Shown here in pieces: positions 1,668 through 42,426 of a stretch of 64,000 nt of DNA; the stretch's first letter is position 1, and the number at the start of each line of letters is the position of its first letter. The stretch comes from Alicyclobacillus acidocaldarius subsp. acidocaldarius Tc-4-1. Its GTDB lineage: Bacteria > Bacillota > Bacilli > Alicyclobacillales > Alicyclobacillaceae. Under the pieces are notes generated by a model. It was not told where the DNA came from and did no database searches. It worked only from the letters and a program-made list of their open reading frames with translations. The position numbers and the translations under genes are program-made. The stretch covers positions 2,317,361 to 2,381,360 of the forward strand of contig NC_017167.1 in assembly GCF_000219875.1 (NCBI RefSeq), written 5' to 3'.

Positions 1668-1709
1668 ATCGTTCGACCTCCTCACCTTGAGGGTGGGATG
1701 CAGGACAAA
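1668..1709 (-). promoter_or_regulatory. SD-hairpin element, copy 1
   Basis: Minus strand reads TTTGTCCTGCAT, then a short CACC-loop-GGTG / CCCTC...GAGG hairpin carrying the GAGGAGG ribosome binding site of the downstream parB-like gene. One of the weaker stems in the family. Confidence 0.7.
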
Positions 1710-1758
1710 GACCGGACCAAATCAGTAGCGATTGTACAGCCTGCGCCTGGCGAAGGAC

Positions 1759-1788
1759 AAAAACCGCCCTGCATCCTTTGCAGAACGG
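1759..1788 (-). terminator. Intrinsic terminator
   Basis: Minus-strand stem CCGTTCTGCA / TGCAGGGCGG (10 bp with G-T pairs, loop AAGGA) followed by TTTTTG. It separates the PIN remnant from the parB-like gene. Confidence 0.7.
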
Positions 1789-1794
1789 CGTAGA

Positions 1795-1930
1795 TCATTT
1801 AAACGAGCGCAGGAATTCGCCTGGCGCAACGTGACCAACCTGTAACCGACGAAAGTGCTTCTGGTTCCAAGTCAAGACCGTCGGACACTTGCTGTGTCGC
1901 GCTTTCGCGGCAATGTATGCGCAGGGGGGG
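1795..1930 (-). pseudogene. PIN-domain protein, C-terminal remnant 1
   Basis: The minus frame ending at 1795 encodes AYIAAKARHS...VLTWNQKHFRRL...GEFLR, the C-terminal third of a VapC-like PIN ribonuclease, nearly the same as the remnant at 6664-6861. The catalytic N-terminal half is absent. Homology seems to switch frame across a run of seven C's (1922-1928 on the complement), so this is a decayed fragment. It has no partner antitoxin. Confidence 0.7.
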
Positions 1931-1944
1931 CACCTCTCTCCACA

Positions 1945-2166
1945 TCAACAATTGCCCGAATGAAACGTGCTCAACGGATTCGCTGGATTGAGCGGGCTGA
2001 GTGGACTGGCCGGATTCGCTGGATTGAGCGGGCTGAGTGGACTGGCCGGATTCGTCGGATCAAGCAGGTCAAATCGGTCGCTACGTTTCCGTTGATTATG
2101 GGTATTTGGCTTGCGCGTGTTTCCGTTGGTCGACTTCCCGTTTGTTGACTTTTGGGTGTTGTCCAT
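1945..2166 (-). CDS. Small proline-rich repeat protein (hypothetical)
   Basis: ATG 2166 has GAGGAGG 10 nt upstream. The 73-residue product starts with a polar stretch with repeated STNG and continues as two 12-residue Asn/Pro/Ser/Leu units encoded by an exact tandem DNA repeat. The last residues overlap the start of the PIN remnant in another frame, so the C-terminus may be an accident of rearrangement. No family recognised. Confidence 0.45.
   Translation of the reverse strand: MDNTQKSTNGKSTNGNTRKPNTHNQRKRSDRFDLLDPTNPASPLSPLNPANPASPLSPLNPANPLSTFHSGNC
1976..2047 (+). repeat. Exact 36-bp tandem repeat, two units
   Basis: Units 1976-2011 and 2012-2047 are identical, with part of a third at 2048. 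At 36 bp the repeat keeps frame in the minus-strand ORF (12 residues per unit). Confidence 0.9.
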
Positions 2167-2310
2167 ATCGAGCATGCCTCCTCACCGGGTTTTGTCCTAC
2201 GTATTAAGAGTGTTTTATGAACCTCCACCGCCTGTCGCTTCGCGCATGGGAAGGAGAATGCGCGGACAGAGTGATAGAATATACCAACGGTGAGATTGTA
2301 GATATTCCAC

Positions 2311-3435
2311 CTAATTCCATAGTCGCCATGTCTCTTTCCTGAACAACTGAAAACGGTTATCGCGCGATGCACGCGGCAGTGCCCATCGTTCCTTCCACCA
2401 ACTAGCGAGATCTGAGAAAGGAAAATCAAAGAAATCTATAACATCTGTTTCGCCTCGTAGAAACTCAGGTGCGTTCTTGGCTAAGGGAGCCACAAAAATT
2501 TCCCTAGCAACGCCATGATATATTAGAGTCTGTGGTAATTCGAGTATTTTCAGTGCTTTCAGAATCACTTCACGTCTATTTCGAAAACCGGATCCCCAAT
2601 CTTTGTGTTTGGCTGTTGGCGCATACGTCTGTTCTACAATCGTTATGATCTCCTTATATAAACCGTTGATGTAAGGAAATTCGCCGGATCCGCTCGTAAA
2701 TCCGACCGAGTGCATCACAAGAAGATCTCGGTATTTTACGCGATTATAAATAGACGATTTACCAAGGGCGGATGTAGTCGTGACCAAGACAAGCGGCCCG
2801 GTTAACTTTTTGCTAATACGCGTGATGCGATTTGCATATCGACGCTCGAATACTTCACGTACCTCGTTGCTAACCACTGCTAACGCAACCAATTTGCCTC
2901 CTAAAAGATGGTTGTACGGTGGTACGGCTCCTAACACGAAAGCATCCATCACATTTGCCAGCCGAAGCCGACGCTGTTCTTTCGACCATCCGATCCACTG
3001 GTCTCGGTCAGCTAGTGCAAAGACAGGGTCACATAACCCGAAGATCCCTATCAGTCGGTCGTGTGCTGCATCCCAAACAAGAAATCTCAGTCGCCTGCCA
3101 TACCCAGCAGATACAGGTATACTCCAATGAAGACGCACGTAGCGAAATAGAAGTTCTTCCACTGTATCCGGTTTGACTTCTATCAACGTTGGGGTAATAA
3201 TGGCTGGATTTATCTCATTCCCGTTAGCAATCCAGCCAAGCAACTCATCTTCATGTCGCTGAAGATTTCGCTTTGCTCGTTCAATGTTGTAAGCGCAAGC
3301 CTTGGCATGCAATGCACGTAAGGCATTTTTGTCCGACGCACAAAAATAAAGTCTTCTTCCATCCCAGTAAAAGCCCTGTCTTCGAAGAACATCAAGAATT
3401 TTTCGCCTAAGAACTTGTTTCTCAACTTCTGTCAT
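2311..3435 (-). CDS. DUF4338 / DruA-like defence protein
   Basis: A 374-residue protein. The core at about 85-330 has features I associate with DUF4338, the domain of Druantia DruA: RLRFLVWDAAHDRLIGIFGL, the DQWIGW strand, and the PPYNHLLGGKLVALA segment, followed by TGPLVLVTTTSALGKSS. Its ATG lies 18 nt after the stop of the cytosine methyltransferase, with an AGGGGAGG-type hairpin in the gap, so the two are probably co-transcribed and translationally coupled. DruA proteins are known from anti-phage islands; a stand-alone pair with a C5-methyltransferase suggests a restriction-like role (inference). Catalytic residues are not known to me. Confidence 0.75.
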   Translation of the reverse strand: MTEVEKQVLRRKILDVLRRQGFYWDGRRLYFCASDKNALRALHAKACAYNIERAKRNLQRHEDELLGWIANGNEINPAIITPTLIEVKPDTVEELLFRYVRLHWSIPVSAGYGRRLRFLVWDAAHDRLIGIFGLCDPVFALADRDQWIGWSKEQRRLRLANVMDAFVLGAVPPYNHLLGGKLVALAVVSNEVREVFERRYANRITRISKKLTGPLVLVTTTSALGKSSIYNRVKYRDLLVMHSVGFTSGSGEFPYINGLYKEIITIVEQTYAPTAKHKDWGSGFRNRREVILKALKILELPQTLIYHGVAREIFVAPLAKNAPEFLRGETDVIDFFDFPFSDLASWWKERWALPRASRDNRFQLFRKETWRLWN

Positions 3436-3453
3436 TCTCCAGAAACACCTCCC

Positions 3454-4683
3454 CTAATGGGAAAGGCACTTTTTTATATCTTTGACGATAAAAGTGGCCA
3501 ACCTCACCGGAACTGCGTTCCCCAATTGGCGCATGCTTTCCGTCCAGGACCCGCTGAAATGGTATTCGTCCGGGAAAGTCTGTAGGCGTGCGCTCTCACG
3601 AACCGTAAAGTAACGTACGCTACCATCCGGTTTCACAAGCATGTTTTCTCCTCCGGGAACACCGTGATCCCCGGCTTTAAGTGTTTTCGCTGGCTCGTCG
3701 AGCGGACTCCCGGTGTGACCCGGATAGATGCGAGCTCCTGGGTTGAAGCGATGATCAGGTATGACGTTATCGTATTCGTTTTCCGGGTCTGGAAGATCGG
3801 AAATGGCATCGCGTACCGTCATCCAAGGTGCCCCCTGTACTAATCCCAACCCTCCTCGAAGACGTTCGATTCTCTTCTTAAGTTTGTCGGGCATTTCAGG
3901 GCGATGCTTTTTCGCCACTCGATGTCGTTCCCAATAATCTCCAGTGACCCATTGATCGTACAAGAGAGCGTCGAAGGAATGCGTGGGTTCAGGAAAAGAC
4001 CATTCGATATTCAAATCGCTTCGAAAACCGACGATAAACACCCGTTCCCTCTTTTGCGGCACCCCGTAATCGGCAGCGTTAAGCAAGCGAAATACCACAT
4101 GGTATGTAAGACCCTCGTGATGTCCTTTGGTATGATGCCGTTCCAATCGAGATAAGTGATCCGTCCAGTCTTCGTTTTCCTTGGAGGCAATTTCCGGATA
4201 AGAAAGTTGAAGAAGTATGTATTCGAAATACTTTGCGAAGGTATCCCGAAGCAATCCTTTCACATTTTCGATTAAGACGACTTTCGGTTGAATTTCCCGA
4301 ACGGCCCTGATCATTTCCGGAAACATATTCCGATGATCCTTAAAGCCACGGTGTTTTCCGCCCAATGAAAACGGCTGACACGGCGGGCCTCCAGCTAGAA
4401 GGTCGATGCCTTGATATTGGGTGAAATCGACATCTCTCACGTCGCATTGATGAATCGGCCAATTTTGTACCTGAGCCACGTTTCTCTCTTTATTGAGACG
4501 AATGGTGTCACATGCGTCTCGGTCCCACTCGTATAATCCTACATGCCGAAATCCGGCATTAGATATTCCCATCGCTAGGCCACCGGCTCCAGCAAAAAGT
4601 TCAACTGACCTCTCGCGAAGGTCACCGTAATCCTGGCGGATACGCTCGTCTACGCGAATGTCCTCAATGCGGAGCTTCGTCAT
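3454..4683 (-). CDS. DNA (cytosine-5) methyltransferase
   Basis: 409 residues, all motifs in order: ELFAGAGGLAMG (motif I, SAM binding, about 29), GGPPCQPFS (IV, catalytic Cys, about 98), LIENVKG (VI), QKRERVFIVGF (VIII), VRESARLQTFPDEY (IX) and QLGNAVPVRLA (X). It transfers a methyl group from SAM to cytosine C5; the target site cannot be read. The start ATG ends an 11-bp hairpin that hides the GGAGG. The downstream DUF4338 gene is its probable functional partner. It looks intact. Confidence 0.93.
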   Translation of the reverse strand: MTKLRIEDIRVDERIRQDYGDLRERSVELFAGAGGLAMGISNAGFRHVGLYEWDRDACDTIRLNKERNVAQVQNWPIHQCDVRDVDFTQYQGIDLLAGGPPCQPFSLGGKHRGFKDHRNMFPEMIRAVREIQPKVVLIENVKGLLRDTFAKYFEYILLQLSYPEIASKENEDWTDHLSRLERHHTKGHHEGLTYHVVFRLLNAADYGVPQKRERVFIVGFRSDLNIEWSFPEPTHSFDALLYDQWVTGDYWERHRVAKKHRPEMPDKLKKRIERLRGGLGLVQGAPWMTVRDAISDLPDPENEYDNVIPDHRFNPGARIYPGHTGSPLDEPAKTLKAGDHGVPGGENMLVKPDGSVRYFTVRESARLQTFPDEYHFSGSWTESMRQLGNAVPVRLATFIVKDIKKCLSH

Positions 4684-4725
4684 GCAATCGCCTCCTCAAC
4701 TGAGAGGCGATTGCATGACAAAAAA
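4684..4725 (-). promoter_or_regulatory. SD-hairpin element, copy 2
   Basis: TTTTTTGTCATGCAA, then an 11-bp perfect stem GCAATCGCCTC / GAGGCGATTGC whose 3' arm holds GGAGG and abuts the ATG of the cytosine methyltransferase. The T run is also the tail of the upstream terminator. Confidence 0.85.
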
Positions 4726-4752
4726 GCCGCCCCACCACGCCGGCAGGGCGGC
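4720..4752 (-). terminator. Intrinsic terminator upstream of the methyltransferase
   Basis: Minus-strand GCCGCCC ... GGGCGGC stem followed by TTTTTT, directly after the stop of the gene ending at 4757. It is immediately followed by element copy 2, so the methyltransferase either needs its own promoter or read-through. Confidence 0.75.
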
Positions 4753-4756
4753 TTCC

Positions 4757-5347
4757 TCATTGCGCTACGCGATGTTGCCCATCGTCCAGATTCGCCAATG
4801 TCCACATCCGCGCCTCGATTCGTTCTCGAAGGACGCGGCTGATCTCTTCGCGTAACACTACCAGGACGGTCTCTTCGTCGACATTCGAAACTTTCGCCAT
4901 CACCGCTTTGACGGCAGGCACCACCAAACCATAGAGCTCCCGGTCCAACTCGTATCGAATCGTCGCGACGGCAAATCCAATGTCGAAAAAACACCCCCTG
5001 GAGATTTTCTGCAGCGACATGGCTCGTTCTGCCAACGCCATCACAGCCACCTTGGTCTCGTCCGGGTGTTCGTTCGCAAACTGAGCCGTCTTGGACTTCG
5101 ATCCCAGCATCTCGATTCTCCGCAAGACCGCCGGAACAATGTCGCTCTCAACAAACCGAAGGGACGGCTCAACTGCGCCGTCTTCGAGGAACGCGTTGGT
5201 CTCGCGCCAGACCATCTTGGCTAACTGATTAAGAATCCCTTGGGGCACGACACGGCCTGTGAGTTCCGACAACGTACGCATGGCAAATCGTCCCGCAGCT
5301 CGCGCTTCGAGACGACGTTCCTGCTCGTAGAAATCGTAAGCGCCCAT
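4757..5347 (-). CDS. Hypothetical protein coupled to ParB copy 2
   Basis: ATG 5347 overlaps the stop of parB copy 2 (TGATG), so translation is coupled. 196 residues, largely helical and charged, with no signal peptide or membrane segment and no family I recognise. Its position suggests it works with the ParB-like protein; copy 1 of parB has no visible equivalent. Confidence 0.7.
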   Translation of the reverse strand: MGAYDFYEQERRLEARAAGRFAMRTLSELTGRVVPQGILNQLAKMVWRETNAFLEDGAVEPSLRFVESDIVPAVLRRIEMLGSKSKTAQFANEHPDETKVAVMALAERAMSLQKISRGCFFDIGFAVATIRYELDRELYGLVVPAVKAVMAKVSNVDEETVLVVLREEISRVLRERIEARMWTLANLDDGQHRVAQ

Positions 5348-6615
5348 CAGCGGTCCCTCCGGAACATCAGGACATTGTTCGACTTGACGCCTTCGCACTT
5401 CTTCGCAAGGTTCGTCAACGCCTCAGCAGTCACATAGAGCACGGACACAAAGTGATCCCGAACTTCGTCTGAGACGGATTCCGGTTCCCAAACCGCAAGC
5501 ATGCCCGCGACGTCTTGACGCACCTCGTACAGCTTGGATTCGAGATTACGCAGCGCGGCATAGCTCGCTTCGGAATTCCCCGCCGACTCGAAGGTCTTCT
5601 CCAATCGCTGGCGCGCAAGGCGTTCCTTGATCGCCTCGTCCTCCGCCTGACGTTTGGCTTCCAACGCGGCGGCCTTCTCTTTGCGAAGCTTGTCTGCAAG
5701 ACGTTCCTGCTCCGCGAGTGACGCTTTCAGTTCGTCATTCTGCTTACGCAGATCGTCGAGCGCCCGCTTGATCTCCTCTGACACAACCTCGATGCGCGGC
5801 CGCTCAGCCAGTTCCCGCCGCGCCTGTTCCAACTCGCGCTGCGTGTCCTCCAGCGCCGCTCGAAGCGCAGCGGGTTCGTCTTTTGCCGCTTCAATTTCGC
5901 GGGTAAGTCGCTGAAGCGAGCCTTCCAGTTCGCGTACCCGCTTTTCTGCAGCTTCCCGCAAACGACGTTCCTCTTCGATCTGACGACGGATCTCCTTTGC
6001 TTCTGCAACCGTGCGCTCGCCAATGGCCTCGCCAAAGGCTTGAAATAACGCGCGTTGCTCATCGGGCGTCAGATGGGCAAGCTGTTCTGCGGCGGTTGTG
6101 CCGAGTTTGCTTGCGGACACGAGAGTTTGGAGTTCTGGAATCAGATCGTTAAGCTTCAGCAATCTCGGTAAGTGCGCAGCATCCGTTCCCACAGCCTCTG
6201 CGATGTCCTTGCTCGTCTTGGGGGATTCACCATTTTGGTTAACCCTCGAATACTGATTGACGCCGCGGTGTACTCCCCAATACTCCTTGAGGAACTTCGC
6301 CCGCTTCGCCTTCCTGATCGGGTCGTTGTCCTCGCCCCGGCGTTCCTCGTTGTCCGCGATCAGCAGGTATTCGGCCTCCACTTGGCTTACGTCGTAGATC
6401 ACAACGGGCACTTGCTCGATCCCGAGTTCCCTCGCGATTCGGAATCGCTGATGGCCTGCGATGATGGTCCCATCCGGCAAAATTTTGAGTGGATCGCGGA
6501 TGCCGTGCGTCGCGATGCTCCGCTTCAACTCCTCATACTTCTCTCCGGCAATGTCGGTGAAGTATTCGGCGTTCCTGGGATGCGGTTTGAGCCTGTCGAC
6601 ATGGATCGTGCTCAT
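5347..6615 (-). CDS. ParB-like partition/nuclease-domain protein, copy 2
   Basis: 422 residues, with the same architecture as the copy at 360-1667: ParB N-domain (LKPHPRNAEYF, GTIIAGHQR, ADNEERRGED), HTH region (SKDIAEAVGTD... GTTAAEQLAHL), then a coiled coil from about 200 to 350. ATG 6615 was chosen because GGAGGGG lies 7 nt upstream, inside element copy 3. The two paralogues differ most in the coiled coil and C-terminus, which suggests an old duplication of a parB/PIN unit. Confidence 0.85.
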   Translation of the reverse strand: MSTIHVDRLKPHPRNAEYFTDIAGEKYEELKRSIATHGIRDPLKILPDGTIIAGHQRFRIARELGIEQVPVVIYDVSQVEAEYLLIADNEERRGEDNDPIRKAKRAKFLKEYWGVHRGVNQYSRVNQNGESPKTSKDIAEAVGTDAAHLPRLLKLNDLIPELQTLVSASKLGTTAAEQLAHLTPDEQRALFQAFGEAIGERTVAEAKEIRRQIEEERRLREAAEKRVRELEGSLQRLTREIEAAKDEPAALRAALEDTQRELEQARRELAERPRIEVVSEEIKRALDDLRKQNDELKASLAEQERLADKLRKEKAAALEAKRQAEDEAIKERLARQRLEKTFESAGNSEASYAALRNLESKLYEVRQDVAGMLAVWEPESVSDEVRDHFVSVLYVTAEALTNLAKKCEGVKSNNVLMFRRDR

Positions 6616-6656
6616 AAAAAATCCCCTCCTACTGGAGGGGTGTTTGCAGGGCAAAT
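6616..6656 (-). promoter_or_regulatory. SD-hairpin element, copy 3
   Basis: TTTGCCCTGCAAA, then a perfect 7-bp stem CCCCTCC-AGTA-GGAGGGG with the SD in the 3' arm, 7 nt before ATG 6615. The upstream PIN remnant stops 8 nt before the motif. Confidence 0.9.
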
Positions 6657-6663
6657 TGTACTT

Positions 6664-6861: not shown

Positions 6862-7263
6862 ATAGAAAAACCCCCTCTCTACTTGAGGGGGATTGCACGA
6901 CAAAACGCCGCGTTGCTGTACCGCGATGACCGTTCGCCAAACTTCCAAGAGCCGGTCATCAACACACCGCGATTCTCCCATGTCGCGACAGGAACAACCG
7001 ATCACGATTGGGAGATTCCGGACACACCAAAACGCCCACCGCAGCGCAAGCACGATACGCTTTCGCCGAGACAAGCTCGTATCACACCATATGAGACGTG
7101 CACCGACATACGGATACACCACCAACGCCCGGAAGAGCACGGAAGGCACAAGCCTTAAGCTGTAGAACCGTCGCGTCTCCTCGTAGAGTCGTATCATCGT
7201 GCCGACCACAAGGGCGGCAAGTACACACACTGCGCTCCAACACAAGACAAACGCCAAGCCCAT
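6664..7263 (-). CDS. Two-TM membrane protein fused in frame to a PIN fragment
   Basis: ATG 7263 follows element copy 4b. Residues 1-115 are a paralogue of the protein at 8587-8937 (MGL.FV..W start, two hydrophobic segments at about 2-24 and 40-60, RW.fWC.R. motif). That paralogue ends at VWRQLVISA; here the frame continues through hairpin copy 4 into the PIN fragment with no stop, giving 199 residues. The fusion looks like a by-product of recombination at the element rather than a designed protein. Whether both start sites are used is not visible. Confidence 0.55.
   Translation of the reverse strand: MGLAFVLCWSAVCVLAALVVGTMIRLYEETRRFYSLRLVPSVLFRALVVYPYVGARLIWCDTSLSRRKRIVLALRWAFWCVRNLPIVIGCSCRDMGESRCVDDRLLEVWRTVIAVQQRGVLSCNPPQVERGFFYVRIRLEALRDYDEQHVDYIDAYIAVKEKHSGSSDVLTWNQKHFRRLGVRSITPGEYLRTASGTSK
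6862..6905 (-). promoter_or_regulatory. SD-hairpin element, copy 4
   Basis: TTTTGTCGTGCAA followed by a perfect 7-bp stem CCCCCTC / GAGGGGG. The upstream ORF reads straight through it. Downstream is only a PIN fragment, so this copy marks a recombination joint. Confidence 0.85.
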
Positions 7264-7306
7264 CGCACCATCGCCCCCTATCTGGGCGGCGCGCGCAGGA
7301 CAAAAA
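7264..7306 (-). promoter_or_regulatory. SD-hairpin element, copy 4b
   Basis: TTTTTGTCCTGCGC, then a CGCCC / GGGCG stem; the GGGGGCG arm is the RBS of ATG 7263. Confidence 0.7.
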
Positions 7307-7391
7307 CCTCAAACTGTTTCCGCCTTGGGCCTGCGCGAGCGTGCGGAAAATTACAACCCCCCGAGTCGTCGGCGACGTATCTGTTGCCCAC

Positions 7392-8166: not shown

Positions 8167-8239
8167 AGCCCGCGACAGGACTCGAACCTGCAACCGGCCG
8201 CTTACAAGGCGGCTGCTCTGCCTGTTGAGCTACGTGGGC
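8167..8239 (-). tRNA. tRNA-Thr (TGT)
   Basis: 73-nt cloverleaf on the minus strand: acceptor GCCCACG / CGCGGGC (one mismatch at position 5), D-arm GCTC...GAGC, anticodon stem GCCGC / GCGGC with loop CTTGTAA (anticodon TGT, codon ACA), and a T-arm containing the TTCGAGT loop. No CCA is encoded. A single tRNA within the element may supplement the host codon supply. Confidence 0.9.
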
Positions 8240-8953: not shown

Positions 8954-9583
8954 TCAGGCCAGAACTGCATTGGGCTCGCGACTTCTCGCGATTGCCTTTC
9001 TCGCTTTTTTCCGCAACCGCTGCACCGCATTGTCCACCGTTTTATACCCGCACTGTAAGATACGCTGGATCTCCACGTATGAATGCCCCTCGAGCCGCAA
9101 CCGCCACACCGCGCGTTCGAGCTCCGTCAATCTCAGCCCCCAATGCCGCTCTGCCCATGCCACGAGTTCCTCTGGACCCGCACTTTGCGGTGGCCCAAAC
9201 ACCATATCGTCCACACTCGGTGCCGTACGATCAACGAACACGTCCAGCACCGTGCGCTCCGAGTCCTCGATCCATGGGCACTCCGCGTCGAGCGACAGAG
9301 CCGTCAGATGCCAGAAGTGCTTTTGCCGCCGCGCCATCTTGAGCACGGTGACGAGTTCTCGCTTGACGCACATCTTGGCGAAAGCCAGGAACGGCGTTTG
9401 CCCGTCGTACCCACGCACCGCTTTCCAAAACCCAATCAGAGCGTGCTGCATCACGTCGTCGCGTTCTGCTCCGGGGATCCAATATCCATGCGCCCAGCGG
9501 CGCAGTCTGTCGCGAAATTCTTGATAAAGCGCCATGAAAGCGTCTTGGTCACCGGATTTTGCTGCAAGCACCAACGTGTCCAT
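8954..9583 (-). CDS. Sigma-70 family RNA polymerase sigma factor (SigH-like)
   Basis: 209 residues. Region 2 lies at about 15-85 (FMALYQEFRDRLRRWAHGY ... DDVMQHALIGFWKAVRGYD), followed by a spacer and region 4 at about 155-200 (LTELERAVWRLRLEGHSYVEIQRIL...KTVDNAVQRLRKKARKA). Length and layout resemble sporulation SigH. ATG 9583 was chosen because the SD arm of element copy 5 is 7 nt upstream. Probably directs RNA polymerase to element promoters; which ones cannot be told. Confidence 0.85.
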   Translation of the reverse strand: MDTLVLAAKSGDQDAFMALYQEFRDRLRRWAHGYWIPGAERDDVMQHALIGFWKAVRGYDGQTPFLAFAKMCVKRELVTVLKMARRQKHFWHLTALSLDAECPWIEDSERTVLDVFVDRTAPSVDDMVFGPPQSAGPEELVAWAERHWGLRLTELERAVWRLRLEGHSYVEIQRILQCGYKTVDNAVQRLRKKARKAIARSREPNAVLA

Positions 9584-9623
9584 AAGAATCGCCCCCAACA
9601 GTGGGGGCGGTGCAGGGCAGTTT
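9584..9623 (-). promoter_or_regulatory. SD-hairpin element, copy 5
   Basis: ACTGCCCTGCA, then an 8-bp stem CGCCCCCA-CTGT-TGGGGGCG with the SD in the 3' arm, before the sigma gene. The upstream type ISP frame stops at its edge. Together with the first codons of the sigma gene it resembles copy 6 at 14435. Confidence 0.9.
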
Positions 9624-14278: not shown

Positions 14279-14374
14279 CTTGATCACCCGTTCAACACCT
14301 TGGATTCCAAGCAAATCTTGTGCTTTCTTCGATATTCGAATGCGAACTTCCTTCTTGATTGGCTAACCTCCGCC

Positions 14375-14434
14375 TCATCCGCGACGCCGGAGTACAAATG
14401 CACCACGCTTTGCTGCAAACACCAGTGTGTCCAT
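14375..14434 (-). pseudogene. 5' remnant of a sigma-factor gene
   Basis: ATG 14434 opens MDTLVFAAKRG, matching the first residues of the sigma gene at 9583 (MDTLVLAAKSG), and then diverges to a stop after 19 codons. It makes a direct repeat flanking the type ISP gene. Confidence 0.7.
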
Positions 14435-14476
14435 GAGAATCGCCCCTCCGACATAGAGGGGCGGCGTAAGACAAAA
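14435..14476 (-). promoter_or_regulatory. SD-hairpin element, copy 6
   Basis: ATTTTGTCTTACGC, then an 8-bp stem CGCCCCTC / GAGGGGCG ahead of the sigma remnant. The CGATTCTCATGGACAC stretch after the hairpin matches copy 5, which has T in place of the last C before ATG. Confidence 0.85.
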
Positions 14477-14669
14477 TGAAGCCACGGATTGATCCCACAC
14501 CTTCTCCGGCAACAAGCATATACATCAATCAGTTAGGCAAAACTGGTGATGGTAAATGATGAGGTGTGGAATGATGAACTTTCACAGGAAGATCGCCAAG
14601 AAAACATTGCGTCTCGCCAGCAGACGATACTATGATAAGGGCAGCCCTAGCGAAACGGAGGGAAGCGAC

Positions 14670-18055: not shown

Positions 18056-18510
18056 GGAAAAACCCCCTTCGACGAGAAAGTGCTCTCGTGAGAAGGGGGC
18101 TTGCAGGGCAAAATTTGCCCAAAAGTCGTGTCTCCAGTTCCTCGCCTCTATTGCTGAAGCCGTACTCGCGAGTAACGTGAGGCAACCCGGACAGCAGGAA
18201 TTCCCGATGCCGAGCAGGAACATCCGCATCCATCATCATTCGCTTGGCCGCCGTGGCGGTAACACGCGCAAACTGCGGCGTGGCAACCACCGCATTGGAA
18301 GACGGACTGTGAGTCAACGTCGGCGCATCAACTCGATCTCCCGCATTAAAGAGACGCTGCACCCGCTCGTCCAATGACGCGGAACATCCCCGTGGCATCC
18401 GCCCCCCCCCGACCTTGTCGCAACAACAACTTCGCGCACGCAGGCCCAGCACCGCGGCGAATGCTGGACGGTGAACGAAGAGGGCGACCGCAACGCACAC
18501 ACGTGGACAT
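18048..18510 (-). pseudogene. Zinc-ribbon protein paralogous to the ArdC N-terminus, frameshifted in a G9 tract
   Basis: ATG 18510 (RBS GGGAGGGG) starts MSTCVRCGRPLRS...RRGAGPACAKLLLRQG, matching the first residues of the ArdC-like protein. After a run of nine G's (complement of 18402-18410) the homologous frame continues one base shifted as GRMPRGC...LDERVQRLF and runs to 18048. Removing one G restores a gene of about 154 residues. Decay, sequencing error, or slippage-controlled (phase-variable) expression are all possible. Confidence 0.65.
18056..18114 (-). promoter_or_regulatory. SD-hairpin element, copy 7
   Basis: ATTTTGCCCTGCAA, then CCCCCTTC / GAAGGGGG (8 bp) with an additional hairpin in the large loop. 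The SD is in the 3' arm, and the upstream ORF is translated through the whole element to a stop overlapping ATG 18055. Confidence 0.9.
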
Positions 18511-18534: not shown

Positions 18535-19392
18535 TCATCGATTCATCAACTCCTGCAACACCGTCAGCTTCCACCGAATTGCATACTTCGTCGTCGACAC
18601 ATTTTTATCAGGACGGAACATCTCTACCGGTAACAGTTTCGCATACGGCTTTCCGGCGTCCGTCAGCACCCACGCCCGCGCCGCCTCGTCCCATCGTTGC
18701 AATCCGGCTTCGGCGAGCAACCGATTCATGCGTTGCGCCGACACGGGCGGCGACATCCGCTTGCCGAGTTCCGTCGGTGAAAATGTCTCGTCCAGGTCGT
18801 CGTCGCGAATGTGCCGCTTGTACTCGCTGAGATCGACACCGAACTCGCGCTCCGTGTGCGACAACGCCAAGAGCGTTGCGGTGCCGTCGGACAACCCAAT
18901 TAGTTTTCCAAGCTTCTTCTTGTAATTTACAGTCGAGTAAACCTCACGCCACGAAATGCGCCTAACCGCTCGATCCACGACCTGCGGTGCCTCGATACGC
19001 GCCTCTTCCTCGACGTTCAGCAAGTACGTGCGAACCGTCTTGGCAACCTGGCTGTCCCGAAGAAGCATACCGATGCGGAGAATGGCGCGGCGGGGTACAA
19101 TCGTAAGGGAAGCTGTGTTTTTGGGAACTACACCCATCTCCTTAAAGGAGATCAGTTCAGCGCCCGATATTGTCCGCAATCCGTCCTGTTCGAGTTCGTC
19201 ACGATGGTCTAAAATCAAACTGTCGATCGCCTTCTTCGGTACCTCATAGTAGGAAGCCACCAGCGCTACAGTGGCATGGAGATCGTCCGGCAACAACGTC
19301 AACGCCTTGACCTTCTCCAGCACATCCGTCCTGTCCGCCAGTCGATCCCGCAGTTCGCGAACCTCCAACAACAGATCCGTGTTCACGTTCAT
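18535..19392 (-). CDS. Phage antirepressor/regulator-like protein
   Basis: About 285 residues (ATG 19392; GTG 19386 is an alternative better spaced from GGAGG). The N-terminal coiled region is followed by segments resembling phage Rha/antirepressor proteins (ISFKEMGVV, RRAILRIGMLLRDSQVAKTVRTYLLNVEEEAR), and the C-terminal winged-helix-like part (SPTELGKRMSPPVSAQRMNRLLAEAGLQRWDEAARAW...TDAGKPYAKLLP) resembles the KilA-C/DNA-binding tails of antirepressors. Exact family uncertain. Confidence 0.7.
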   Translation of the reverse strand: MNVNTDLLLEVRELRDRLADRTDVLEKVKALTLLPDDLHATVALVASYYEVPKKAIDSLILDHRDELEQDGLRTISGAELISFKEMGVVPKNTASLTIVPRRAILRIGMLLRDSQVAKTVRTYLLNVEEEARIEAPQVVDRAVRRISWREVYSTVNYKKKLGKLIGLSDGTATLLALSHTEREFGVDLSEYKRHIRDDDLDETFSPTELGKRMSPPVSAQRMNRLLAEAGLQRWDEAARAWVLTDAGKPYAKLLPVEMFRPDKNVSTTKYAIRWKLTVLQELMNR

Positions 19393-19446
19393 CGCCTCCA
19401 AGACGAAGATTGGTGTCTTCGTCTATAGGGCGTTTGCAGGACAAAA
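19393..19446 (-). promoter_or_regulatory. SD-hairpin element, copy 8
   Basis: TTTTTGTCCTGCAAA, then CGCC, a perfect 9-bp inner stem AGACGAAGA / TCTTCGTCT, and GGAGGCG. The outer CGCC/GGCG pairing would hide the SD. The upstream stop lies 2 nt before the motif. Confidence 0.85.
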
Positions 19447-20580: not shown

Positions 20581-20624
20581 CCAGCAATCCCTCCCTACAA
20601 GGAGGGCGTTTGCAGGGCAAAAAT
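20581..20624 (-). promoter_or_regulatory. SD-hairpin element, copy 9
   Basis: TTTTTGCCCTGCAAA then CCCTCC-loop-GGAGGG with the SD in the 3' arm. A GC-rich CCGCGC/GCGCGG hairpin lies just upstream, making the motif's T run look like a terminator tail. Confidence 0.85.
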
Positions 20625-32386: not shown

Positions 32387-32887
32387 TCACGGTAGACCTG
32401 AGCAGTTAGCAGACCACAACCCCAACTGCGCCCCCTCCACCCTCTTCAACTTAGCCCTCGCCCGCTTCAGATGGTTCTGCACCGCGCCGCGTGTGATCCC
32501 AAGCTCCCGCGCGATCGCCGAGTACGTCATACCGGACTCATATGCGAAGAGACACGCCGCTTCCCGCAGGCTCAGGATCGACAGCCACGCCACGGGCAGA
32601 CGTTCTTCCTCTTCGCCACCCTCACTCGCGTCGTCCCAGTCCATCCACCGCCTTCGCCGCGCCGCCAGTCTGTCAAGGTCCGCCAGGTCTCCAACGAGGA
32701 TTTCACGCCGAGGAGCGCGACACTCGCCCTCCATCACCGCCAGCGCATAGTCAAGTGTCTTCACCATGCTGTCATACAGAGTGGCATCCTGATCATTGGC
32801 CTCTCGCCGCGCTCGGTTCCGAGCTTGGCGGATCGCCTCGCGAGTGGACTCGTACTCCGCGATCAGGTCGTCCAGATCCCGACGCAT
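32387..32887 (-). CDS. Sigma-like/ArpU-type late regulator with HTH
   Basis: 166 residues from ATG 32887 (GGAGGGG 8 nt upstream). Coiled N-terminus, acidic middle (DDASEGGEEEE), then a region 4-like HTH (LSLREAACLFAYESGMTYSAIARELGITRGAVQNHLKRARAKL). Resembles phage transcription regulators of the RinA/ArpU or sigma-24-like kind. Alone, with DnaA boxes just upstream. Confidence 0.75.
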   Translation of the reverse strand: MRRDLDDLIAEYESTREAIRQARNRARREANDQDATLYDSMVKTLDYALAVMEGECRAPRREILVGDLADLDRLAARRRRWMDWDDASEGGEEEERLPVAWLSILSLREAACLFAYESGMTYSAIARELGITRGAVQNHLKRARAKLKRVEGAQLGLWSANCSGLP

Positions 32888-38001: not shown

Positions 38002-38016
38002 AGCCTTTGCCCCTAA

Positions 38017-38053
38017 CGAACATATGTTCTATACCAAGCATAACTCAACCAGG
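38017..38053 (-). promoter_or_regulatory. LexA (SOS) box and promoter of the kinase/exonuclease operon
   Basis: CGAACATATGTTC (38017-38029) is a near-perfect LexA operator. On the minus strand TTGAGT lies 18 nt before TATGTT, which falls inside the box. Confidence 0.8.
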
Positions 38054-38078
38054 TTCGCCACGCACGCGGCAAAATCGG

Positions 38079-38471
38079 TTACATCGCGCTTAACTCTTTG
38101 TGCAGCAGGACTTCGACCTCCAGCCTCGGGTTGCTTCGGTCTACGAAAAAGTCCATTTCCTGAACCAGCACCCACCGGTCTTCTGGATACAAGACGCCCT
38201 CCAGAGCATCCAACAGCACCTTTTCTCGATTATGCGTATCCATCCGGCGATTTGACGGCCAGAAGTACCACAAGCGCAAGACCACTTTCGTGCCTGGTTG
38301 CGGCATCTGCCACCCTGTCGCCTGCCGCCAACGAAGCGCAAGATAGGCCGCGTCGCGCCGAAACTTCTGCGCTTTGGCGTTGAGGACCCGCATCCGCTGC
38401 CCTGTCTTCGGATGCACAAAACTTCGATAGGCATGATTGACAGATGGCGGAAGCGGGAGCACCAGACGCAT
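38079..38471 (-). CDS. rusA: RusA-like Holliday junction resolvase
   Basis: 130 residues from ATG 38471 (GGAGG 7 nt upstream). Family features: LVLPLPPSVNHAYR, FWPSNRRMDTHNREKVLLDALEGVLYPEDRWV (the D..N..K..DA catalytic core). Resolves four-way junctions in phage recombination. Intact and of usual length. Confidence 0.92.
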   Translation of the reverse strand: MRLVLPLPPSVNHAYRSFVHPKTGQRMRVLNAKAQKFRRDAAYLALRWRQATGWQMPQPGTKVVLRLWYFWPSNRRMDTHNREKVLLDALEGVLYPEDRWVLVQEMDFFVDRSNPRLEVEVLLHKELSAM

Positions 38472-38517
38472 GGAATGGCCTCCAATCATTTGGCATGGTT
38501 TAGCGGCGAAACTTGTG

Positions 38518-38856
38518 TTAGCATGCGGTTCGTGGGTTTCCACGCCCACTGCGTTGTGGCGCTGCGATCGCGTCGAGTAGCCGGGCCAGGTACGCTTGCT
38601 CGGCGCGGTACCGCTCATAGAGTTGGTTGGCGCGATCTGTATGGCGATTTTCAAACCAAATCGCCTTCGCGCGAGCAACGCGCTCATCGGCTTGTTGCAA
38701 TTGGACTTCGAGTAACGCCAGTCGTTCGTTCATCCTTGTCGTCCCCCCAAACTCACTTCGACAATCCTCGCAAAGAGGACTCCACGGATAGCGGACAAAG
38801 TGCCCGCACAGTCGGCATCTCGGTCTTTCCATCTTGCGCGCCCTTCGTTTGGACAT
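38518..38856 (-). CDS. Zinc-ribbon coiled-coil protein
   Basis: 112 residues (ATG 38856; ATG 38832 is also well placed after GAAGGG). CRLCGH...CEDC zinc ribbon near the N-terminus, then a helical coiled region. Probably DNA- or protein-binding; no named family. Confidence 0.65.
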   Translation of the reverse strand: MSKRRARKMERPRCRLCGHFVRYPWSPLCEDCRSEFGGTTRMNERLALLEVQLQQADERVARAKAIWFENRHTDRANQLYERYRAEQAYLARLLDAIAAPQRSGRGNPRTAC

Positions 38857-38864
38857 GCTTGAAA

Positions 38865-39050
38865 TCACGCCTTTCGTTTGTGTCGAAACGCGCTCTCAGG
38901 ACGAAGAATGTACTCCTGCACACGAACCTGACCGTTGACTTCCATCACCACTTCAAGTACCGTCGGCAACCCGCGTCGCCACTTGAGTGGTCGGGCTTCG
39001 ACGACGGTTGCTTGTCTCGACTCATTCCTAGGAGCGTTTTGCATCTTCAT
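38865..39050 (-). CDS. Small hypothetical protein
   Basis: 61 residues, stop just before the zinc-ribbon gene. Beta-strand-rich middle (TVLEVVMEVNGQVRVQEYIL) and basic ends. No family recognised. Confidence 0.55.
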   Translation of the reverse strand: MKMQNAPRNESRQATVVEARPLKWRRGLPTVLEVVMEVNGQVRVQEYILRPESAFRHKRKA

Positions 39051-39059
39051 CACTCACCA

Positions 39060-39200
39060 TCAAAAATCATCCTCCCAAGCTTCCGGCGTCGCAGGCGGTT
39101 GTCGGCGATCAGGCGGATCAACGGGGATCCACACTCGCTCCTTGCGCCACGGCAACAACAATCGGCGCAAGCGTCTGCGCCATGACTGGCGTCGATTCAT
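39060..39200 (-). CDS. Short overlapping ORF, basic
   Basis: 46 residues from ATG 39200 with AGAGGAGG 6 nt upstream; it overlaps the 3' end of 39118-39525 in another frame by 83 bp. Arg/Pro-rich. The good RBS is the only support. Confidence 0.4.
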   Translation of the reverse strand: MNRRQSWRRRLRRLLLPWRKERVWIPVDPPDRRQPPATPEAWEDDF

Positions 39201-39525
39201 CGACATCCTCCTCTCGGTCAAAATCCACGGGATACAAGCAGCCCACGACTCGAAACCCAATGCACGGCTCCTGTTCCACGCCGGGCGGCGGAGGCTTCCG
39301 CCGTCGATAACGTTCGCGCCGAGCGTAGAACTCGACGATCTCGCCTGGGCGAAGCGGCGGCTGATGCTGAGGCGAGCGCCGACCGAGTTGGAGCCACGCA
39401 TGCTCCCGTAGCAGGTTGCCGTCCCGATCCCGCACATCGTAGACCAGCGCGACCAGGTTGCGCGCGGGCGTGTTCCGACTCCACAAAACAAACTCCGCCG
39501 TGTACCGATCCAGTGCGGCCCTCAT
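39118..39525 (-). CDS. Conserved-type phage hypothetical protein
   Basis: 135 residues from ATG 39525, 2 nt after the DUF669 stop. Beta-rich (TAEFVLWSRNTPARNLVALVYDVRDRDG, GEIVEFYARRERY). No family recognised; coupled with the DUF669 ssDNA-binding gene. Confidence 0.6.
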   Translation of the reverse strand: MRAALDRYTAEFVLWSRNTPARNLVALVYDVRDRDGNLLREHAWLQLGRRSPQHQPPLRPGEIVEFYARRERYRRRKPPPPGVEQEPCIGFRVVGCLYPVDFDREEDVDESTPVMAQTLAPIVVAVAQGASVDPR

Positions 39526-39527
39526 GG

Positions 39528-39935
39528 TCAGCGCCCCTTTACCGGATCCAGATAGGCCACTTGCGTCTTCTGCCCCGTGGCCGGGATCGTCACCGTCTTC
39601 AGTTCCACCTTCACCAGGCGTCCGAGGCACTGTGGCAGAAGCTCCGGCAGCCGAGACAGATAATCGGTGTAGCCTATCGCCAGGAGATCCCGCTTGAGCC
39701 ACGCCAACGTCTTCTCGTTGTTGTTGATGGGCCGGTGGTGGAAGATGCGCCGCCCCTTGTGAGAACCCTCATCAACCACAAACACCAGCGCGAGGTGCAA
39801 GCCGTCGTTGCCCTTGTTCTGCTTCACTTGCGCTTTCTCCAAGCGACAAACGTACGTGCCGTCTGGCAGCGGCTGATATCCACCCTTGGCAGGTTCGACG
39901 TCCTGATACTTCTTGTCCAGTTCGGTAAGATTCAT
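39528..39935 (-). CDS. DUF669-like ssDNA-binding protein
   Basis: 135 residues from ATG 39935 (GGAGG 7 nt upstream). DUF669 features: LPDGTYVCRLEKAQVKQNKGNDGLHLALVFVVDEGSHKGRRIFHHRPI and ETLAWLKRDLLAIG. Family members in phages are OB-fold-like ssDNA-binding partners of recombination and helicase genes. Confidence 0.8.
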   Translation of the reverse strand: MNLTELDKKYQDVEPAKGGYQPLPDGTYVCRLEKAQVKQNKGNDGLHLALVFVVDEGSHKGRRIFHHRPINNNEKTLAWLKRDLLAIGYTDYLSRLPELLPQCLGRLVKVELKTVTIPATGQKTQVAYLDPVKGR

Positions 39936-39987
39936 TTTTCATCCTCCGTTTCTTCAATGTTCCAGTTACTGGGCGTATGCGGCAGCG

Positions 39988-40024
39988 GCTCCCGCTCTAC
40001 TTGGAGGGGGAGTGGCAGACAACA
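39988..40024 (-). promoter_or_regulatory. SD-hairpin element, degenerate copy 12
   Basis: CTGTTGTCTGCCAC then TCCCCCTCCAAGTAGAGCGGG, clearly derived from copy 4 but with a broken stem and no start codon after it. The next gene has its own RBS. Confidence 0.55.
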
Positions 40025-40049
40025 GATTCACTTCTGAAAATGCCCTCTT

Positions 40050-40241
40050 CTAACTTAACGGCATCGGCCCCCCACCACGCGGCTCGTCTCTCGTCACCAG
40101 TTTGAGACCATCTCGCAACTTCCTCGCTGTCTCTTGGTCGATCACAAGCTCCAGTGGACCGTGTGCATCGGACAAAAGTACCCGAATCTCGCCTCCGTCG
40201 ACCACAACCTGCACCTCTGCTTCCTTGATGCTCAACCGCAA
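40050..40241 (-). CDS. Small acidic hypothetical protein
   Basis: 63 residues from TTG 40241 (GGAGGGGGAG upstream), overlapping the previous gene by 10 nt. Beta-rich start (IKEAEVQVVVDGGEIRVLL). No family recognised. Confidence 0.55.
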   Translation of the reverse strand: MRLSIKEAEVQVVVDGGEIRVLLSDAHGPLELVIDQETARKLRDGLKLVTRDEPRGGGPMPLS

Positions 40242-40720
40242 CTCGCTCGCTCCCCCTCCAACTGCCGCGCCAAACTTGCCAGCGCCATCCGCTCCTCGTT
40301 CAGCGCCAACCGCACCTGCTCCGCCACAAGCTCATGCCCAAGCTCATCGTCCTTCCGCACCCCGAGCAACGCCTGGCTCGCATCGACCCGGCGCTTGACC
40401 GCACTGTAGAGCATCATCAGCGCCTGATATCGCTCTGTCGGAATCGCGACGACATTGCCTTGGACCGCCGCACTCGCCTGCTGCGCCTCCACACACGCCC
40501 TGGCCAACGACTGTGCCTCCCGCAAATCGTGATAGAGATCCAAGAGCGAATCCAACATCTCGCGGTATGCGTAGGCACGATCCCGAAGCGCCCGGTTGTG
40601 ACTGGCCTCGCATTGTGCCCAGTGGCTCTGCAATTCCCGCAGGAAGTGGTCGTAGCACTCACAGACAATGGTCAGTCGGTTGTAGACCTCAGTGACTGAC
40701 ACGCTCCACGTCGTTTCCAT
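40232..40720 (-). CDS. Helical hypothetical protein
   Basis: 162 residues from ATG 40720 (AGGGAGG upstream). Almost entirely helical with many Arg/Glu/Gln; no membrane segments. No family recognised. Start overlaps the upstream gene's end. Confidence 0.6.
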   Translation of the reverse strand: METTWSVSVTEVYNRLTIVCECYDHFLRELQSHWAQCEASHNRALRDRAYAYREMLDSLLDLYHDLREAQSLARACVEAQQASAAVQGNVVAIPTERYQALMMLYSAVKRRVDASQALLGVRKDDELGHELVAEQVRLALNEERMALASLARQLEGERASCG

Positions 40721-40943
40721 TTCGCCATGCCTCCCTCGCTTCGCGTAGAATGGTGGAGACTTCAGCTCGCGCCTTTTGTAGATTTGCAAACGCCAAAGGT
40801 TCCGCAGGATCGTCGGCCCATTCATAAGCCACCTCAGCGGCGCGACAACGTTCGACAGCCTCAAACAGCGCCTCTTGGTAGGCTCGGTAGACCTCGCTTG
40901 TCTCCCACGCCGGGGATCGTCGTCGAGCAATTCGATCAAGCAT
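40689..40943 (-). CDS. Small helical hypothetical protein
   Basis: 84 residues from ATG 40943, directly after element copy 10. Acidic helical middle. No family recognised. Its translation is expected to be tied to that of the sliding clamp gene upstream. Confidence 0.6.
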   Translation of the reverse strand: MLDRIARRRSPAWETSEVYRAYQEALFEAVERCRAAEVAYEWADDPAEPLAFANLQKARAEVSTILREAREAWRNGNDVERVSH

Positions 40944-40982
40944 AATCACCACCTCACCATTGCGTGGCTTGCAGGACAAAAT
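40944..40982 (-). promoter_or_regulatory. SD-hairpin element, copy 10
   Basis: TGA of dnaN runs directly into TTTTGTCCTGCAA; then CCAC...GTGG around a GAGGTGG RBS. The stem is weaker than in copies 2-7. Confidence 0.7.
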
Positions 40983-42091
40983 CAGTCGTTCGTCAGGATC
41001 GCCGAGATCAAATGCAGGTGATCATCGTCATCATGGAAGGCCACCGGTCGACTCCGCCCAGCAAATCGCATCCTCACCGTCGCGCCTTCCATCGCCTGCA
41101 ACATCTCCAACATGAATCGCGCGTTGAGCGTCACCCGCACTTTCTCACCCGAAGATTCGAGAATCGGCACCTCTTCGCGCGCCTGACCGCGATCTCTCGC
41201 TCGCGATGTCATGTGTAGCGCGCCGTCCGACAAATCCATCGTGACCGAGTGATGTTCGTTCTCAGCGAGAATCATCGCACGTTCGACCGCCTGCTCAAGC
41301 CGATCACGTTCCACCATGCACTCCGCGATAAACTCCGTCGGGATCACCCGAGTCACGTCATGGTACTCCGCTTGATACAAGAGCGCGTACAACCGGACAT
41401 TCCCCCACGCGAACATCACGTAGTTGGCGCTCTGGTACACCTGCACCGTCGTGTCTTCTTCGTCTTCTAATAGTCGCAAGAGCTCTGATAGCCCGCGTCG
41501 CGGAACCGTAAACCGAATTGGCAAATCTCGCCCCAACTTCTGCGCCATTCGCGCCAACCTCAACCCGTCTGTCGCTGTCCAGACCAATCGACCGTCTTCG
41601 CACCGGACATGAACGCCATCTAAAATCCGCCTCACCTGGTCCTGCTTCGCCGCTGCATAGGCCACAGCCTTAATCGCTTGGACGATGGCCTTCGCCGGGA
41701 TCTCCACTGGCTCGATGCCCACCATGTCAGGCAACGTCGGAAATTCCACGGCGTCGCGAGCATTCAACTCCATGTGCGTCGTGCCCGAGTCCAAGCTGGC
41801 ATTCAAGTGGTATGGAGGGATCGTTGCGATATCAATCGGGCCTTCCGGAAGCCGTCGCACCAAGTCTGACAGCAGTTTCGCCGGGAGCACGATTTCACCC
41901 GAATCCACGACGTGCGCTTCAAGTGTCATCCGAAGCGCAACCTCCAAGTCATACGCCGTGAGCGTGACTTGACCGCCATTGGCCTCGATCAGCACGCCCT
42001 GGAGTATGGTCTTGGGTGTTCGCGCCGGCGCGATGCGAGCGAGTGCAGCTAGCGCAGGTTGGAGGATTTTTTGCTCGATTAGGCACCGCAT
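40982..42091 (-). CDS. dnaN: DNA polymerase III beta sliding clamp
   Basis: 369 residues from ATG 42091 (GGAGG 10 nt upstream), the family's usual length with three clamp domains: MRCLIEQKILQPALAALARIAPARTPKTILQGVLIEA, LTAYDLEVALRM, ATDGLRLA, and NARFMLEMLQAM near the end. The usual C-terminal PMRL-type end is changed to LHLISAILTND. A phage-borne clamp, probably used with the replication module and the Y-family polymerase. Confidence 0.93.
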   Translation of the reverse strand: MRCLIEQKILQPALAALARIAPARTPKTILQGVLIEANGGQVTLTAYDLEVALRMTLEAHVVDSGEIVLPAKLLSDLVRRLPEGPIDIATIPPYHLNASLDSGTTHMELNARDAVEFPTLPDMVGIEPVEIPAKAIVQAIKAVAYAAAKQDQVRRILDGVHVRCEDGRLVWTATDGLRLARMAQKLGRDLPIRFTVPRRGLSELLRLLEDEEDTTVQVYQSANYVMFAWGNVRLYALLYQAEYHDVTRVIPTEFIAECMVERDRLEQAVERAMILAENEHHSVTMDLSDGALHMTSRARDRGQAREEVPILESSGEKVRVTLNARFMLEMLQAMEGATVRMRFAGRSRPVAFHDDDDHLHLISAILTND

Positions 42092-42387
42092 ATTGTCTCG
42101 GCCTCCGATGTCGAATTTTGCACGATTGCCTGACGCAATGCCTCGCGATCCTTCGGCGTGACTGCCTGCGGAACAACCAGGTAGATGGTGTGCACCACCG
42201 ACACCTTGCAGAACCTCGGCACTGCCATGAGCAACCGCGTCTCGTCGCATGGCTTGTTCGGATCGTAGGCCATCCGAAACCCGCGGCCCTCGTAGACCGG
42301 CGGGTACTCGCCTTCCTCCACGACGCCCAGACACAAGCCGCGCTTCATGCGAACTCGACCCTGCTCCCAAACAGCAAACTCAAACAT
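42079..42387 (-). CDS. Hypothetical protein upstream of the clamp
   Basis: 102 residues from ATG 42387, after element copy 11; its 3' end overlaps the dnaN start by 13 nt, so the two are coupled. Contains VVHTIYLVVPQAVTPKDREALRQAI. No family recognised. Confidence 0.65.
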   Translation of the reverse strand: MFEFAVWEQGRVRMKRGLCLGVVEEGEYPPVYEGRGFRMAYDPNKPCDETRLLMAVPRFCKVSVVHTIYLVVPQAVTPKDREALRQAIVQNSTSEAETICGA

Positions 42388-42426
42388 TCAACCACCCCTC
42401 TCATTAAGTGGATGTTTGCAGGACAA
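42388..42426 (-). promoter_or_regulatory. SD-hairpin element, copy 11
   Basis: TTTGTCCTGCAAACA encodes the last residues of the upstream gene, whose TAA lies in the hairpin loop. Weak CCAC/GTGG stem with GAGAGGGG in the loop and 3' arm, before ATG 42387. Confidence 0.75.

Follow-up and report, generated by a model that had tools for sequence, protein, structure and literature searches.

A repeated 31-base signal that looks like a phage-specific gene switch in large prophages of Alicyclobacillus and related bacteria

In this article, I will discuss a repeated element in a 64,000-nucleotide stretch of Alicyclobacillus acidocaldarius subsp. acidocaldarius Tc-4-1 (positions 2317361-2381360 of NC_017167.1, a 3.12-Mb genome in one contig, G000 below). 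This stretch is referred to as the window, and its first letter is position 1 for all coordinates given without a region or locus name. The window is a prophage, and the element, a 31-base signal recurring at its gene starts, looks like a phage-specific gene switch used in large prophages of Alicyclobacillus and related bacteria. The minus strand carries sigA (8954-9583) and sigB (43061-43597), two sigma-like genes with regions 2 and 4; sigC (32387-32887), which encodes a sigma-region-4 protein (Pfam Sigma70_r4_2, 3.8e-10; PHROG 1190); and a phage sliding clamp gene (DNA_pol3_beta, 40982-42091; PHROG 947; Pfam 4.9e-26), for which the start follows my own gene call and the Pfam run used the longer frame 40982-42370, with the match beginning at residue 94. 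Close to the right end of the window, repressor-like and integrase genes are found on the plus strand, and next to them comes a region read mostly leftward, which holds primase, helicase, sigma-like, clamp, nuclease and accessory genes. Relatives of one gene of this prophage were found in Alicyclobacillus sendaiensis and A. macrosporangiidus, and a second, related prophage, sharing proteins with the first, is situated at about 1.69-1.79 Mb of the same genome. In the region names used below, G000a is the window prophage with its flanks, G000b is the second prophage, and, likewise for other genomes, different letters denote further stretches of the same genome.

The original prediction, made by a model from the letters of the window, listed 13 minus-strand copies of a leader element consisting of a 13-mer followed by a hairpin. 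When scored with a 31-position weight matrix at a cut-off of 12 bits (trained on relatives together with the window copies and hence not independent of them), 12 of the 13 reach 16.6 to 33.4 bits, each on the minus strand as claimed, whereas the copy at 39988-40024, also on the minus strand, scores 10.6 bits and had to be dropped; as a background, 40 column-permuted matrices gave a mean of 0.375 matches of at least 12 bits per window and a maximum of 3. In the direction of transcription, with the higher coordinate as the 5' end, the accepted copies are 42388-42428 (30.0 bits), which precedes a 102-codon frame and has the clamp gene as the second gene behind it; 40944-40981 (29.6 bits); 20581-20622 (31.0 bits), with a ribosome-site hairpin of -12.4 kcal/mol; 19393-19446 (32.7 bits) and 18056-18113 (33.4 bits), both with a long hairpin and the latter before an ArdC-like gene; the degenerate copies 14435-14476 (16.9 bits) and 9584-9622 (16.6 bits), the second immediately before sigA; 7264-7305 (24.9 bits; hairpin of -14.5 kcal/mol); 6864-6905 (30.0 bits; -13.9 kcal/mol), before a frame that stops after 5 codons; 6616-6656 (28.6 bits; -14.7 kcal/mol), before a ParB-like gene; 4684-4723 (31.2 bits; -12.7 kcal/mol), before a DNA methyltransferase gene; and 1668-1710 (21.1 bits), with a weak hairpin, before a ParB-like gene.

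The plain 13-mer with up to 3 mismatches occurs 29 times in the window alone against 18.2 expected, which is barely above chance (2 of 100 shuffles get as high), and exact TTTGYCCTGCAA sites in the whole genome lie on one strand in 13 of 15 cases and form two clusters, the second being the related prophage. The early region to the right of sigB is element-free in the window, since no site of at least 11 bits is found on the minus strand from 42428 to 63523; a 17.3-bit minus-strand match at 63523, outside the element-bearing region, is probably due to chance. At 4675-4723 the inverted repeat extends into the 13-mer, giving a 14.0-bit match on the plus strand as well, and behind the degenerate copy at 14435 there is a short frame (14292-14498) with a sigA-like start, perhaps a vestige of that gene.

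Across related prophages, an ungapped alignment of 80 distinct copies yields the motif TTTTGYCNTGCAA-N11-RYGRAR, in which a first conserved block (block 1) is followed at positions 24-29 by the RYGRAR block (block 2), with C's preferred in the spacer at positions 14, 15 and above all 17 (~90%). A 13-column matrix run over 1.257 Mb from eight genomes found 118 sites of at least 14 bits compared with 11 for the reversed and 8.5 for the permuted matrix, and the dominant strand of each prophage holds at least 122 of the 130 sites at 13 bits or more. An early collection comprised 104 sites with a ribosome-site-like string (76 after identity filtering); for the logo set, 122 dominant-strand sites of at least 13 bits were reduced to 91 by deduplication and to 80 by limits on score and ribosome site and by exclusions by eye, the latter removing 10 sites in host or coding DNA or away from any gene start, one of them (G040c, 3250) the sole site of its region. 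Selection of the 80 used block 1 only, so the conservation of block 2 is independent there, and the scores of the 31-bp matrix on these same copies, on which it was trained, are not. In the 33 of the 80 copies that have a distant, weak or unrecognised ribosome site, block 2 is not the Shine-Dalgarno sequence, and yet its positions and the spacer C's are conserved similarly to those of the 47 close-set copies; one-base shifts in spacing do occur (1730197). This rigid spacing regardless of RNA structure favours recognition as DNA. The oriented, start-associated, phage-wide element that had been predicted is thus real, as matrix scores and dominant strand both attest, and 13-mer and hairpin are both present; the unit, however, is larger than these two parts, with two rigidly spaced blocks, and the hairpin is not universal.

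The consensus sequences of Sigma-54, SigA, SigH, SigI and extracytoplasmic function (ECF) promoters were compared with the logos and gave no convincing match. In viral_contigs, TTTTGTCCTGCAA with a downstream GGAGG was found in one stretch, and neither the clamp frame nor a 288-amino-acid product of the prophage had a relative; a Desulfosporosinus relative of the 288-amino-acid gene has no recognisable element before it.

The same layout returns with a variant sequence, TTTTGTCVCCCR, in two genomes of genus g20 (G049 and G050), which belongs to another family of the same order. Followed by Y and RRR downstream, the variant has 11 matches each in G049 and G050, 2 in G046 and 0-2 in each of the other 148 of the 151 genomes, and with one mismatch allowed there are 34 second-family sites versus 6 in the reversed control. 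The 25 distinct strict copies retain TTTTGTC and are altered in the 3' half of block 1, and the TGCAA-type pattern has zero matches in G046, G049 and G050. The loci from G050 and G046, and one from G049, were collected with a pattern in which Y at 17 and RRR at 26-28 were required from the outset; independent support for block 2 comes from 11 strict G049 copies collected beforehand, which by eye have RRR at 26-28 in 10 cases and C at 17 in 9. Second-family copies in a genome of another family are located at L165:11143; L170:3251, 7573, 11005, 12656 and 19351; and L171:2536, 10495, 10532 and 13472, of which L171:10495 and 10532 stand in tandem, 37 bp apart.

Among the sigma-like genes, it is the presence of sigC that tracks the elements best, with exceptions and as a correlation in which other phage genes differ too. 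At a minimum of 43% identity over more than 140 residues, sigC is found in 7 of 201 genomes, with element-pattern counts of 19, 12, 8, 28, 5, 3 and 2, and in the other 194 the count reaches 2 only in G021 (5, random-looking) and in G028, G033, G060, G078 and G080 (2 each); the reversed pattern gives at most 3 per genome. By region, sigC was found in the element-bearing G000a, G000b, G002a, G002p (a fragment), G010b, G023a, G023b, G023c and G040a, and not in G040b, G024a, G034a, G023d or G009b, which have no accepted element, nor in G040c, whose one site was dropped by eye. In G029 the sigC match covers 58 residues only, and two element-like sites lie near one copy. The sigC proteins of G049 and G050 are 31-32% identical to that of the window, and proteins belonging to the two motif families have different recognition helices (RGAVQNH versus KDSVKTH). 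No sigC relative was found in 50,697 phage records. The small, sigma-like sigC is the likeliest reader of the element, and it may also bind the replication clamp.

The other two sigma-like genes deserve the same scrutiny, since a phage promoter could also be read by sigB or sigA. In G000a, G000b and G002a, sigB is well placed, as the first accepted element to be transcribed follows it within ~3 kb; in G023a it likewise lies upstream of the accepted elements, and sigA stands behind an element in the manner of autoregulated sigmas; nevertheless, sigB was not found in the element-bearing G023b, G023c and G040a, does occur in G040b, a region with no accepted element, and has an element-like site upstream of itself in G000b, while sigA orthologues were not found in G023a-c and G040a. 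I consider a phage sigma other than sigC as the reader distinctly improbable, and sigB and sigA as sole readers were dropped on co-occurrence across regions. One sigma gene in nearly all relatives matches sigA at 31-39%, and for this reason sigA is probably SigH-like.

What sets sigC apart is its C-terminus, where Q[LIM]xL[FW] is present in 15 of 15 aligned sigC proteins (QLGLW in the window; the last F of the G049 row was taken from a separate sequence listing instead of the alignment). I take this tail to be the known bacterial type of sliding-clamp-binding motif. Among 1340 predicted region proteins (my own gene calls, which missed some sigC copies), Q[LMI]xL[FW] occurs within the last 25 residues of 6, every one of them sigC. 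In 30 sigC-family proteins, the tail is present in 7 of 7 from the window's own family (one as QLTLI, which the script allowed) and in none of the 23 that come from other families of the Bacilli; in G049, whose family is a different one within this order, the motif reads QISLF. A phage clamp was found in G000a, G000b, G002a, G023c, G049 and G050. Its DNA_pol3_beta gene is the immediate upstream neighbour of sigC in G023c and G049, and in G050 one frame separates the two, with the clamp gene no more than 0.8 kb upstream. The prophage of the window has a second sigC copy (L003:4066-4692) with an altered C-terminus that lacks the clamp-type motif, and its relative in the other prophage (L006) keeps QLSLF.

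Turning to the hairpin, of the 47 close-set copies 28 reach a folding energy of -9 kcal/mol or better. Pairing of the Shine-Dalgarno with the preceding spacer is 0.63 in 46 close-set copies, versus 0.42 with a shuffled spacer and 0.28 in 510 control gene starts. In a spacer-swap test, pairing with the ribosome site was stronger for a copy's own spacer than for one taken from another copy (z of -5.0 for 47 close-set, -3.4 for 26 distant-set and -3.1 for 14 second-family copies), although in these tests deduplication lowers shared ancestry and does not remove it; 37% of foreign spacers beat the median close-set copy, some copies pairing very well and others not at all. The leaders before the gene at 18535-19401 illustrate the point, in that orthologues in other prophages keep the 13-mer and the hairpin with stems of CGCC..GGCG versus GCCTCC..GGAGGC. 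The claim that stems differ yet compensate is hence upheld copy by copy, and that of a hairpin after the motif is correct for many copies and holds only weakly for 40944 (-6.3), 42388 (-7.7) and 1668 (-6.8 kcal/mol), each folded with its own spacer. The hairpin often accompanies the element but does not belong to its core. In a sub-group of copies, several of them beside the clamp gene, a spacer like CCACGCATNN, which itself looks conserved, replaces the stable ribosome-site hairpin (window 40944-40981; G000b 1786992, 1706591 and 1785020; G002a 1204923; G002c 619728; L154:10072; L156:10852).

Terminators are the other structures to be considered. Since elements supply their own T-run, the comparison was made T-run against T-run, and a terminator-type hairpin is closed by 44 of 84 T-runs at elements compared with 241 of 942 elsewhere (odds ratio 3.2, p 7e-7), or, by class, by 31 of 48 close-set and 13 of 36 distant-set ones. 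For a close-set copy that follows a terminator, RNA has either to come from read-through or to originate in a stretch of ~30 bp occupied by the element alone. The upstream frame had been said to end 0-10 nt before the 13-mer or to enter it, and this holds, for open frames only, at 9584, 40944, 20581, 19393, 6616 and 42388, whereas copy 4684 and many copies in relatives sit directly behind an intrinsic terminator instead. The same adjoining hairpins could bring to mind RNA sites for processive antitermination, which would carry polymerase past the terminators that precede cassettes, but the element comes after the terminator and not before it, and one prophage would hardly need a dozen or more of them, making this reading very improbable indeed. 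Stoperator-like sites, at which the prophage repressor would bind oriented, asymmetric sequences and block elongation in the lysogen, would suit sites that are asymmetric, oriented, prophage-specific and at gene starts, in a prophage with a repressor-like helix-turn-helix gene (60833-61369); however, the accepted sites of the window start only past the early region, their layout is fixed relative to gene starts, and genes directly behind terminators would be left unexplained, and I give this possibility little credence.

The original prediction went further and proposed an RNA-level regulon, in which an RNA-binding protein or a small RNA would read the 13-mer in the leader and open or lock the hairpin. 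The copy-by-copy compensation and the nearly constant leader sense of the element near start codons speak for it, and these parts, the compensated hairpin and the start-associated element, survive; the 13-mer read as RNA does not fare as well. The second block is rigidly spaced regardless of whether the copy has a ribosome site close by and, depending on the copy, lies in the 3' arm, the 5' arm or the loop; terminators upstream of elements would often require restart or terminator passage, the 13-mer by eye has no internal pairing covariation (A9 is combined with C5 no less often than with T5), and Rfam at gathering score yields tRNA only in the window, with no known RNA leader or riboswitch. 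Such a regulon is thus unlikely. A hairpin formed by the 13-mer itself (TTTGY-CNT-GCAA) was also considered and rejected by eye, on the same A9 pairing and on G9-to-C copies that break it.

The reading I prefer, to which I would assign a probability of roughly 40%, is that the elements are phage-specific middle or late promoters read by sigC, perhaps coupled to replication, and that the hairpin silences read-through RNA. Here, sigC would contact block 1 on the DNA, and its QLxLF/W tail may tether it to the sliding clamp so that transcription would follow phage replication, a scheme modelled on gp33/gp55 and gp45 in T4. RNA reading through from upstream would contain the spacer and, by the pairing of this spacer with the Shine-Dalgarno in many copies, would leave the gene silent, while RNA begun inside the element would be without that arm and could be translated.

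Several observations weigh against this proposal. To begin with, sigC is without region 2, and the reading of block 2 would therefore fall to a partner; this block is unlike any -10 consensus known to me, and it overlaps the Shine-Dalgarno in close-set copies. Taken as a -10 at the usual distance, block 2 would place the RNA start near position 36, at the cost of the Shine-Dalgarno in close-set copies, and a start near position 24 is compatible with every copy but, to my knowledge, matches no known promoter geometry. Of the 47 close-set copies, 19 have no stable hairpin, including 42388 and 40944 that flank the clamp gene, and the pairing effect is weak in 23 distant-set copies (0.56 versus 0.47 shuffled and 0.44 control). 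The element-like site upstream of sigB in G000b (1799763) has relatives of 25.0 bits at L158:8228 and 19.0 bits at L154:18930. Among the regions searched by similarity, a clamp was found only in G000a, G000b, G002a and G023c, and none in G023a, G023b, G040a or the smaller pieces. The element-bearing pieces G009a, G010a, G010c and G002c are without a sigC match, though their genomes have sigC; the draft genomes G028, G013 and G046 have element-like sites, of the second family in G046, and no sigC match; and conversely G008 and G036 have sigC relatives with a QMALF tail, around which 80 and 40 kb hold at most one element-like site (G036, 15.6 bits). As a separate observation, the site at G000b 1799763, L158:8228 and L154:18930 has no obvious start codon at the usual distance.

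How much of this has been seen before? The classic example of transcription coupled to the replication clamp is T4, and as in T4 late transcription there is here a phage factor with a C-terminal clamp-type motif, together, in some of these prophages, with a phage-encoded clamp, although here this is a sequence motif only, the clamp is of the beta type and the host is a Firmicute. The late promoters of T4 have no -35 element and are recognised at -10 (TATAAATA), whereas the present element has a long conserved upstream block, and no TATAAATA-type -10 promoter was seen in the logos of 80 and 25 copies. According to the T4 literature, gp33 and gp55 possess C-terminal clamp-binding motifs, late transcription depends on the clamp gp45, and gp33 occupies the place where sigma domain 4 attaches (PMC2988020, PMC7892883). 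Unlike gp33, which does not bind sequence-specifically, sigC carries an apparent DNA-reading helix-turn-helix. The hidden ribosome site also has its T4 counterpart, since the ribosome sites of e, soc, 49 and I-TevI are described as paired in long early RNA, and late RNA of gene e without the 5' part of the structure gets translated (PMC3014915). The hairpin described here pairs the Shine-Dalgarno as in gene e (in the 28 strongly folding close-set copies, not the rest), but it recurs before many genes within one repeated element.

A second precedent is provided by the SAS and ESAS sequences of mycobacteriophages, for which I know of no clamp-linked factor. Cluster K phages are reported to have 11 to 19 mostly oriented 13-bp SAS copies near start codons, and ESAS in phage Adephagia is described as containing SigA-like promoters (PMC3203893, PMC11373665). 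Their sequences are different, SAS (13-bp GGGATAGGAGCCC) overlapping the ribosome site and ESAS having 17-bp inverted repeats, and neither GGGATAGGAGCCC nor such repeats are part of the element consensus. The statement that no described class resembles this element therefore overlooked both cluster K SAS/ESAS and the T4 late genes with hidden ribosome sites. The Gram-positive late regulators Ltr, RinA, ArpU and LlgA are, like sigC, small phage regulators, and sigC, whose match PHROG 1190 is named RNA polymerase sigma factor, may together with that group belong among them. For Phi13 Ltr, a single late promoter is described, which has a SigA motif along with four direct repeats that may serve as sites (PMC13123087). 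Here, by contrast, sites are many and dispersed. The L5-type stoperators are repressor sites that are also oriented, asymmetric and many per genome, and the present two-block 31-bp site differs in being tied to gene starts and in having a ribosome-site hairpin in many copies.

Among the matches listed in open-licence literature, the titles and abstract beginnings described no such element in Alicyclobacillus phages, no clamp-binding sigma-like factor in Firmicute phages and no clamp-tied transcription in Firmicutes. Parts of the scheme have been seen before in T4, SAS/ESAS and Ltr, and it is their combination that is new. It is tempting to go one step further and envisage a T4-like, replication-coupled system that arose by convergence in Firmicute prophages, with a clamp-tailed sigma-4-like factor of its own specificity, genome-wide 31-bp start-site elements, spacer hairpins that in many copies would permit translation of element-initiated RNA only, and factor and element specificity switched together between genera, but taken as a whole this broader scenario is doubtful. 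With its clamp-motif sigma-like factor, its dozens of sites and a site sequence that has changed naturally from one genus to another, this temperate-phage family would make both the coupling and the read-through-silencing hairpin directly testable, and, if true, the system would suggest how these phages gain gene cassettes without early expression.

Three ParB-like paralogues are encoded in the one prophage (window 360-1667 and 5347-6615; L003:16449-17813), each behind an element, and a tRNA-Thr (TGT) is situated within it at 8167-8239. Elsewhere, a single genome (G023, contig C1) carries three element-bearing prophage regions, at 2.37-2.48, 3.75-3.85 and 3.95-4.05 Mb.

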